Shown piece after piece: positions 37,288-40,246 of a stretch of DNA of 64,000 nt. A program made the position numbers and the translations under genes. The notes beneath the pieces are model-generated. The model was given only the letters and a program-made list of their open reading frames with translations, was not told where the DNA came from and did no database searches. Positions within the stretch are counted from its first letter, which is position 1. Each line of letters opens with the position of its first letter. The stretch comes from an uncultured Prochlorococcus sp. (GTDB lineage: Bacteria > Cyanobacteriota > Cyanobacteriia > PCC-6307 > Cyanobiaceae), in assembly GCA_902624105.1 (NCBI GenBank), contig CACNWH010000001.1:62001-126000 (forward strand), given 5' to 3'.

Positions 37288-37363
37288 GTTTTTTAAAATA
37301 TTATTTACTTTATACTATTAAATAAAAGTACTTGTTAGATTATAAATAATAAATTTGTCTATT

Positions 37364-38480
37364 TTGTTAGATCTTACAGAATTTAGAAAAGACCTTTCTT
37401 CATGTAAAGAGCGCCTGAGCAAAGCTCAGGAGTATCTTTGACATTCCTAAACTCAAAGCACAAAAGATAGATTTAGAACAACAAGCTGCTGTAACAGGAT
37501 TTTGGGAGAATCAAGAAAAGGCAAAAATATTAATGAGAAATCTCGATGAAGTTAAAGAACAACTAAATCTATTAGAAAAATGGCAATCGTTAATTGCTGA
37601 TGCGAATGCTTCCCTAGATCTTTTTGCATTAGATCCTGAGGAAGACTTGATAAAAGAATCTCAGATAGGATTAGATATTCTCAAAGAAGACTTAGATAGG
37701 TGGGAACTTCAAAGATTACTTAGTGGAGAATACGATAAAGGTAATGCAGTTCTTTCAATTAATGCAGGTGCTGGGGGTACAGATGCTCAAGATTGGGTTG
37801 AAATTTTATTTAGGATGTACTCCCGATGGTCAGATGCTCATTCTATGAAATTAACTATTAATGAGTTATCAGAGGGTGAGGAAGCTGGATTTAAAAGTAT
37901 TACTTTTGAAATTGAAGGAAAATATGCTTATGGATATTTGCAAAATGAAAAAGGTACCCATAGATTAGTCAGGATATCTCCATTTAATTCAAATGGAAAG
38001 AGACAAACTAGTTTCGCGGGAATTGAGGTTATGCCAAAATTAGATGAAGATATCTCCTTGGAGATTCCAGAAAAAGATATAGAAATAAATACAAGCAGAT
38101 CAGGCGGTGCTGGGGGACAAAATGTTAATAAGGTTGAAACTGCTGTGAGAATTACTCATTTACCAACAGGGATATCTGTTCGCTGTACACAGGAAAGATC
38201 ACAGTTACAAAATAAAGAGAAGGCAATGCTTCTTCTTAAATCAAAGTTACTAATTATTGCTAGAGAACAGAGAGCAGAGGAAATAGCAGATATAAAGGGT
38301 GATATTGTTGAAGCCGCCTGGGGTAATCAGATTAGAAATTATGTTTTTAATCCTTATCAATTAGTCAAAGATCTTAGAACTAATCAAGAGAGCACAGATG
38401 TTGAAGGTTTCTTGAATGGGAATATAGATAATTTTATATACGGATTATTGCGTCTAAATGTTTCTTCAGAAAAAATATAA
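37364..38480 (+). CDS. prfB: Peptide chain release factor 2, expressed by programmed +1 frameshift at CTT TGA C (frame 1 37364-37438; frame 2 from 37440)
   Basis: Frame 1 reads (TTG)[24 protein letters not shown] then TGA at 37439-37441; after +1 shift reads [24 protein letters not shown]...; [10 protein letters not shown] motif; AGGAG-TAT-CTT-TGA-C signal. Confidence 0.93.
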
Positions 38481-38670: not shown

Positions 38671-39219
38671 ATGATTTATCAAAAAAATTCTATAGAATAT
38701 ATTGAATTAGTATTTAAAAACTCTTTTGAAATAGAGTCAAATAAGCTTAATGTGTATGATATTAAACACTATATTTTTGAACATGATTTTTGGGAGAATA
38801 CCTTTTTGAGATGGATTAATATTCTATTGAATGAATTTAAACAGTTTTTGCCAAATTATTTATTAGATAAAAAATCTGGTTCATTAAGTTTTGAAATTGT
38901 TGATGATCTAAAAATATCGGATTTAAATCAAACATGGCTAAATAAATTAGGACCTACTGATGTTCTTTCTTTTCCTATTCTGTCGAAAGAGGATGCAGTG
39001 AATGATCTTAATTCTGTAGAATTTGGAGATATTTTTATATCTTTGGAAATGGCATTGACACAATCAATGGAATATAATAATTCAGTTGAACAAGAAGTGA
39101 TTTGGTTAGCTAGTCATGGATTCTTACATTTATTAGGGTGGGATCATCAAGATCAAATTCAATTAGAGAATATGCTAAAAATTCAAGAATATTTGATTTC
39201 AAAATTAAATATTGAATAA
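38671..39219 (+). CDS. ybeY: Endoribonuclease YbeY
   Basis: GPTDVLSFP and zinc motif HGFLHLLGWDH. Confidence 0.95.
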   Translation: MIYQKNSIEYIELVFKNSFEIESNKLNVYDIKHYIFEHDFWENTFLRWINILLNEFKQFLPNYLLDKKSGSLSFEIVDDLKISDLNQTWLNKLGPTDVLSFPILSKEDAVNDLNSVEFGDIFISLEMALTQSMEYNNSVEQEVIWLASHGFLHLLGWDHQDQIQLENMLKIQEYLISKLNIE

Positions 39220-39226
39220 ATAAATT

Positions 39227-39643
39227 ATGGGTCATCGATATAATTACATAAAAGTAAGAAGAGAGTCTTATCAAATCTCAAGAAATATTTTTGCTAGTTT
39301 TAAATTTGCTATTAATGGATTAATTTATTGTTTCCAAACTACTCGTAATTTCCGCATACAAATTTTATTTGGTGCATTAATAATAATTATTTGTTTTCTT
39401 TTGAAATGTAATCTTAATGAATATATGATAATAATTTCTACAATTTTTTCTGTTTTAATACTTGAATTATTAAATACCTCAATCGAATCTATAGTAGATT
39501 TGTATGTTAAAAATAAGTTTAATAAACTTGCAAAAATATCTAAAGATTGTTCAGCAGCATCTGTTTTATTAGCATCTGTTAATTCAATTTTTGTTGCTGC
39601 ATTTATATTTTTTCCTAAAATTAAAGTGATCCTTTTTAGTTAG
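39227..39643 (+). CDS. dgkA: Diacylglycerol kinase
   Basis: Three TM segments; ELLNTSIESIVDLYV and AKISKDCSAASVLLAS motifs. Confidence 0.9.
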   Translation: MGHRYNYIKVRRESYQISRNIFASFKFAINGLIYCFQTTRNFRIQILFGALIIIICFLLKCNLNEYMIIISTIFSVLILELLNTSIESIVDLYVKNKFNKLAKISKDCSAASVLLASVNSIFVAAFIFFPKIKVILFS

Positions 39644-39649
39644 AAGAAA

Positions 39650-40246
39650 ATGTTTTTAGTAATAGATAATTATGATAGTTTTACATATAATCTGGTTCAG
39701 TATTTAGGAGAACTATCTTCAGAATATTCTATTACTAAAAATATTTTAGTAAAAAGGAATGATCAAATTACCTTGGATGAAATTTCAAAGCTTAACCCCA
39801 AAGGCATTCTTTTATCCCCTGGTCCTGGCAATCCAGATGAGTCAGGTATTTGTATACCAATTTTAAAAGAAATTTCAAAAGATATTCCAACTTTAGGTGT
39901 TTGTCTCGGTCATCAAGCATTAGCGCAAGCTTATGGGGGGAAAGTTATTATTGGACAAGAATTAATGCATGGTAAGACTTCTAATATATTTCATAAAGGT
40001 AATGGTTTGTTTGAGGATATACAAAGTCCATTTCTTGCTACAAGATATCATAGCTTGATAGTTGATCATGTTACATTACCTAACTGTTTCGAAGTTACGG
40101 CTTATTTAGAGGATCAAACCATCATGGGTATTTGTCATAAAGAATATAGTCATATGCAAGGTATTCAATTTCATCCTGAAAGTGTATTAACAGAATTTGG
40201 TCATAAAATAATTGGCAATTTTCTTAAAATGGCTCAAGAGATGTAA
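39650..40246 (+). CDS. Glutamine amidotransferase subunit of anthranilate/para-aminobenzoate synthase
   Basis: DNYDSFTYNLVQYLGEL, LSPGPGNPDESG, GVCLGHQALAQAYGG, GIQFHPESVLTEFG. Confidence 0.93.
   Translation: MFLVIDNYDSFTYNLVQYLGELSSEYSITKNILVKRNDQITLDEISKLNPKGILLSPGPGNPDESGICIPILKEISKDIPTLGVCLGHQALAQAYGGKVIIGQELMHGKTSNIFHKGNGLFEDIQSPFLATRYHSLIVDHVTLPNCFEVTAYLEDQTIMGICHKEYSHMQGIQFHPESVLTEFGHKIIGNFLKMAQEM

Follow-up and report, generated by a model that had tools for sequence, protein, structure and literature searches.

The comparisons described here suggest that cyanobacteria drive the textbook +1 frameshift of release factor 2 (RF2) by an mRNA hairpin in place of a strong Shine-Dalgarno (SD) sequence. 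RF2 synthesis is the standard example of +1 programmed frameshifting, with a duplex between mRNA and rRNA taught as the upstream stimulator. In the window, the 64,000-nucleotide stretch of Prochlorococcus DNA analysed in this study, a perfect 7-bp stem lies just ahead of the prfB shift site. From sequence comparison the structure is well supported in all its aspects, namely the hairpin, its position, its conservation and its covariation. By analogy with artificial hairpins, we assign a probability of roughly 60% to the reading that this cis-acting hairpin refolds beside the ribosomal E site, stimulates +1 frameshifting and largely replaces the mRNA-rRNA duplex.

The prfB leader and its hairpin

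All features of the locus are on the forward strand. The zero-frame leader ORF (37364–37441) extends from a putative TTG start to the in-frame UGA and reads TTG TTA GAT CTT ACA GAA TTT AGA AAA GAC CTT TCT TCA TGT AAA GAG CGC CTG AGC AAA GCT CAG GAG TAT CTT TGA. The spacer codon TAT (37433–37435) sits in the E site once CUU has reached the P site and is followed by the shift site CTT TGA C (37436–37442; CTT at 37436–37438, TGA at 37439–37441, C at 37442). The RF2 body (37440–38480), where GAC at 37440 is the first codon read in the +1 frame, matched the prfB model TIGR00020 above cut-off. The window thus holds the arrangement of the prfB +1 cassette, a short zero-frame leader up to CUU UGA C and the RF2 body in the +1 frame. 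The window is of HNLC-type Prochlorococcus: its RF2 and the RF2 of Prochlorococcus marinus bv. HNLC1 share 97% identity. The leader ORF contains no ATG; a second in-frame TTG was found at 37355, upstream of the putative start, and TTG 37364 and TTG 37355 are the only plausible starts. Given this, the current annotation may place the RF2 start late, for example at ATG 37533. Downstream of prfB, ORFs of the ybeY type (38671–39219), the diacylglycerol kinase type (39227–39643) and the trpG/pabA type (39650–40246) were recognised by eye.

The hairpin consists of the 5' arm CCTGAGC (37414–37420), the triloop AAA (37421–37423) and the 3' arm GCTCAGG (37424–37430). Direct reading and a script agreed exactly, in position and sequence, with the perfect 7-bp stem of the original prediction at 37414–37430. 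The reading also bore out that the AGG of the 3' arm (37428–37430) is shared with the internal SD-like AGGAG (37428–37432), for which a duplex with the 16S tail of -6.6 kcal/mol was predicted. Counted from the C of CTT the hairpin occupies positions -22 to -6 and ends 2 nt from the E-site codon, so that a stable stem stands right behind the E-site codon at CUUUGA, as in a refolding-hairpin stimulator. Folded in isolation it reached -10.0 kcal/mol (z = -4.25). Among the 21 perfect Watson-Crick hairpins of 7-3-7 geometry in the 64-kb window, it was the sole one at or below -8 kcal/mol. The stem had been described as unusually GC-rich, and this was correct, since its codons are rare in the window: CGC makes up 1.3% of Arg, CTG 3% of Leu, AGC 8% of Ser and CAG 15% of Gln codons. 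An Rfam search gave no match above any gathering score; two matches below threshold were attributed to chance.

Only in the HNLC clade can an outer AAAGAG pair with the AUCUUU of the shift site (37402–37444 in the window) and so lengthen the hairpin, giving a 61-nt fold of -18.7 kcal/mol. We rejected this long helix as a functional unit, as it consumes the shift site and its outer arm is absent in most relatives.

Conservation in cyanobacteria

Leaders of prfB were gathered at genus, family and class level by protein search and retrieval of the region. Of 328 cyanobacterial prfB loci, 302 have the 17-nt stem unit in identical register to CUU UGA with all seven pairs, and 321 have it with at least six of seven; the loci include many close relatives, mainly Prochlorococcus, and reduce to 89 distinct 31-nt sequences. 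The stem extends from Prochlorococcus through the most divergent families sampled (e.g. f4, f29, f30 and f33). A covariance model trained on the 89 distinct sequences matched 284 of 291 Cyanobacteriia genomes; among the seven it missed, four genomes (G400, G423, G443 and G554) were also without a prfB match in the protein search. The picocyanobacterial comparison that had been proposed was therefore too narrow in scope, the hairpin being class-wide. When the same geometry was scanned along prfB, the stem appeared at only one of 945 offsets, with 7/7 pairs in 85% of sequences against 11% at the next best offset, in a calculation in which the sites of three loci (L310, L318 and L325) were misplaced. 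The spacer codon was kept as TAT, TGT, TAC or TGC across cyanobacteria. Taken together, the sequences indicate that the hairpin is probably ancestral to Cyanobacteriia and part of the programmed +1 frameshift signal of prfB.

Carriage by phages was also considered. The motif pattern matched two viral contigs, neither of which was convincing as a prfB leader, and this candidate was discarded.

Covariation of the stem

The stem occurs in several forms. CCTGAGC/GCTCAGG is that of the window clade and CCTGGGC/GCCCAGG that of most marine Synechococcus; CCTGGGT/ACCCAGG is found in many other cyanobacteria and CCTGAGT/ACTCAGG in some, so that the inner stem alternates between AGC/GCT, GGC/GCC, GGT/ACC and AGT/ACT. 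Most high-light Prochlorococcus have CCTGGGT/GCTCAGG, in which every pair is kept, two of them as G.U. In the 89 distinct rows, pair 5 was GC, GU or AU in 84 and never A-C, and pair 7 was CG, UG or UA in 74; G.U was tolerated at both (GU in 20/89 rows at pair 5, UG in 15/89 at pair 7). Paired cells amounted to 94.9%, as compared with at most 54% in slid versions of the alignment, and 40 cells had changes on both sides of the pair. The covariation score was 0.242, against 0.166 ± 0.010 for shuffled alignments; none of 500 shuffles reached it, and it exceeded all slid versions.

For correlated evolution we wrote our own version of Pagel's test and ran it on a single gene tree, that of RF2, with a topology from FastTree (141 rows, one of which, L310, was misplaced). 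The partners gave p = 4.6e-7 at pair 5 and 3.7e-9 at pair 7, whereas non-partner columns in the same test gave p = 0.05 and 0.004. Shared ancestry or codon bias thus makes up part of the signal, and the partners are clearly stronger. Sign tests on independent pairs across well-supported branches were always in the pairing direction at pair 5, with too few informative pairs to give the tests power. Covariation had been named beforehand as the check on the hairpin, its absence to count as refutation; it was present, and it marks the element as a conserved RNA structure of the kind expected of a stimulator.

Shine-Dalgarno strength inside and outside the class

What is left of the SD element in most cyanobacteria is AGGA, whose AGG forms part of the stem. 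The non-photosynthetic sister classes have AGGAGG or AAGGAG ahead of the shift site without the stem, and the covariance model found no match at E <= 0.01 in 23 sister-class genomes. Beyond the phylum the outgroups were few, E. coli and 12 prfB genes from PLSDB records, three of which had no recognisable shift site. The stem was absent from E. coli and the other nine genes (Fusobacteriota, Bacillota, Bacteroidota and Alphaproteobacteria), which carried AGGGGG, AGGAGG or AGGG. A survey of prfB in 12,753 genomes from 2025 likewise gives an SD consensus approaching AGGGGG, and neither hairpins nor cyanobacteria are mentioned in its main text (PMC12421855).

The predicted SD:anti-SD energy had a median of -3.7 kcal/mol in cyanobacteria, -6.6 in the sisters (mean -8.3) and a value of -9.9 in E. 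coli, while the hairpin energy was -9.5 in cyanobacteria, 0 in the sisters and -0.6 in E. coli; these are thermodynamic values for RNA without the ribosome, with medians that include the same three misplaced sites. The 16S tail was not found in the window's own genome assembly, which is 67% complete, and four of ten relatives contained the exact tail string; the energies were therefore calculated with an anti-SD that is an assumed conserved tail. The AGGAG of the window (-6.6) is stronger than the SD of most of its class. From the outgroup motifs and the energies we concluded that the hairpin arose on the cyanobacterial branch alongside a weaker SD.

Judged by gene and shift site, the locus is a prfB frameshift cassette, from which the class departs in the strong internal SD 3 nt before CUU: it has mostly AGGA, at a median of -3.7 compared with -6.6 to -9.9 elsewhere. 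It shares with the bacterial cassette the gene, CUU UGA C, the 3-nt spacer codon, the short leader ORF and an AGG element directly 5'. The canonical cassette has a strong, accessible SD and no described upstream hairpin, whereas in cyanobacteria the AGG is held in a covarying stem. AGGA is kept in nearly all cyanobacteria, and the SD may still act there; the stem and the Asp/Glu codon account for most of this conservation.

Proposed refolding of the hairpin on the ribosome

Artificial hairpins placed beside the E site stimulate +1 shifting at CUUUGA on 70S ribosomes with about 60% of the effect of an SD; they do so only without RF2, and less when destabilised (PMC6321510). It has been suggested that stem closure pulls the mRNA 5'-ward, and the same text asks whether a cis hairpin could substitute for the SD on 70S ribosomes (PMC3639245). 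The prfB hairpin resembles these refolding hairpins (Huang, Cho, Chang 2018, PMC6321510; Cho et al. 2013, PMC3639245) in its place beside the E site, the CUUUGA site, the 70S ribosome and, in the proposed action, the +1 direction and the mimicry of an SD duplex. It differs in having a natural 7-bp stem, where those described were designed, with a 12-bp stem, and acted in E. coli extract (PMC6321510). The accessible parts of both papers describe no natural prfB example.

We infer refolding on the ribosome, stimulation, and the sign and size of the effect as follows. The ribosome translating the leader would melt the stem. At low RF2 it would stall on a UGA left unread in the A site, with CUU occupying the P site, and the 3' arm would then lie at -12 to -6, behind the E site in the space of an SD duplex, where it could pair again with the 5' arm. 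Closure of the stem 2 nt from the E-site codon may pull the mRNA 5'-ward or loosen the E-site contacts, the peptidyl-tRNA would slip from CUU to UUU, and full-length RF2 would be produced. The hairpin would in this way do inside the mRNA most of what the duplex of mRNA and 16S rRNA does in other bacteria. For this the exit region would have to accommodate a span of 7 nt from the outer pair of the arms to the E site, a demand that counts against this reading. Also counting against stimulation, three loci of AT-rich Prochlorococcus relatives (L009, L145 and L176) have lost most of the stem and yet retain CTTTGAC.

For T4 gene 60, too, the pulling of mRNA 5' and a forward movement have been ascribed to a stem that closes behind the P site, where the mRNA exits (PMC5009743); that system is a 50-nt bypass in a phage gene and not a +1 shift, and the stem is one signal among several. 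In viruses (the SARS-CoV attenuator; barley yellow dwarf virus) stem loops just 5' of the recoding site alter efficiency, as stated in PMC5009743 and PMC3639245, but there the frameshift is -1, on 80S ribosomes and with downstream stimulators alongside. For RF2 itself a 2016 review gives the SD as the upstream stimulator (PMC5009743), and a study of prfB autoregulation from 2026 includes no hairpin (PMC13245932). Targeted literature searches found no description of the cyanobacterial prfB hairpin, and an earlier remark is possible (e.g. Baranov et al. 2002). We hold it about evenly balanced whether the ancestor of photosynthetic cyanobacteria exchanged an rRNA-dependent SD for an mRNA hairpin that drives the +1 shift and was kept by the class, to our knowledge the first natural bacterial +1 shift driven by an upstream hairpin.

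With its covarying hairpin, a whole class lets one examine in nature how a duplex 5' of the shift site moves the ribosome forward, including the question raised in PMC3639245. In cyanobacterial prfB, frameshift predictors tuned to the SD could overlook a functional element, and synonymous recoding could destroy it.

Other possible roles for the hairpin

The original prediction offered that the hairpin could sequester the stimulatory element and tune recoding. That a conserved, covarying structure engages the AGG was upheld; the direction is probably not sequestration, as the lineage with the hairpin has a weakened SD and artificial hairpins at this place stimulate the +1 shift (PMC6321510). 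In its fuller form, the hairpin would compete with the anti-SD for the AGG and lower frameshifting or make it conditional on temperature, salt or ribosome speed, as a tuning switch. The AGG is common to stem and SD, AGGA is conserved, and the stem would win, exceeding the SD duplex in stability by about 6 kcal/mol. However, there is little reason to hide an element so weak that it can be spared, the SD is weaker where the stem is present and strong where it is absent, and upstream artificial hairpins raised +1 shifting and did not lower it (PMC6321510). We consider this switch unlikely.

The hairpin might also block internal 30S initiation at the SD-like sequence, with a nearby TTG or GTN as start, or shield the leader from misfolding. 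Strong stems generally occlude ribosome binding and the 3' arm covers the AGG, but species with a much stronger SD at the site have no such stem, and we find such a guard improbable.

Highly improbable, in our judgement, is a role in transcription or as DNA, either as a palindromic operator or as a hairpin that makes RNA polymerase pause and so ties transcription to the ribosome on the leader. E. coli has a NusG-suppressed pause just 5' of the prfB regulatory stop codon (PMC10268239). The constant register to CUU UGA suggests the ribosome instead. The DNA palindrome is disfavoured by the frequent G.U pairs, which spoil a palindrome in DNA and not a stem in RNA; a pause hairpin in nascent RNA is unaffected by this argument.

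Lastly, the stem had been thought possibly to reflect the conserved codons of LSKAQE, that is, to be a functionless result of the conserved peptide RLxxxQD/E and the SD. In its favour, most stem columns vary little. Against it stand the covariation, in the score relative to shuffles as in the correlated evolution, and the codons themselves: CTG was found in 325/328 and CGC in 319/328 loci in spite of their rarity in the window, and of the 324 Ala/Thr codons that face the purine, 322 have a pyrimidine as their last base. With the codon usage of the window, R-L-S-K-A-Q-E would give the full stem with a probability of 0.001, or 0.003 with the 3' arm fixed. Redrawing the codons by each gene's own usage, about 23 sequences with at least six pairs were expected and 136 of 141 observed, an effect size and not a p-value, as the sequences are related. 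The stem also survives replacements of Ser/Gly, Ala/Thr and Lys/Asn/His/Gln, and since stem changes accompany those of Ser/Gly and Ala/Thr, what is conserved is not the peptide. With covariation, codon redraw and offset controls all opposed, we rejected conservation of peptide or codons as the cause and leave the by-product next to no probability.

Variant stems and shift sites

In AT-rich picocyanobacteria a broken or bulged stem was seen at L009 (Prochlorococcus sp. W8), L142 (G176), L145 (G156) and L176 (G214), four loci that form natural experiments on the roles of the stem and AGGA. At L009, L142 and L176 the AGGA has decayed too (CAAGA) and CTTTGAC is retained. In family f13, L310 (G468) and L308 (G496) have CTTTGAA or CTTTGAG in place of the near-universal CTTTGAC, and their hairpin is retained apart from a C-A mismatch at the loop end.
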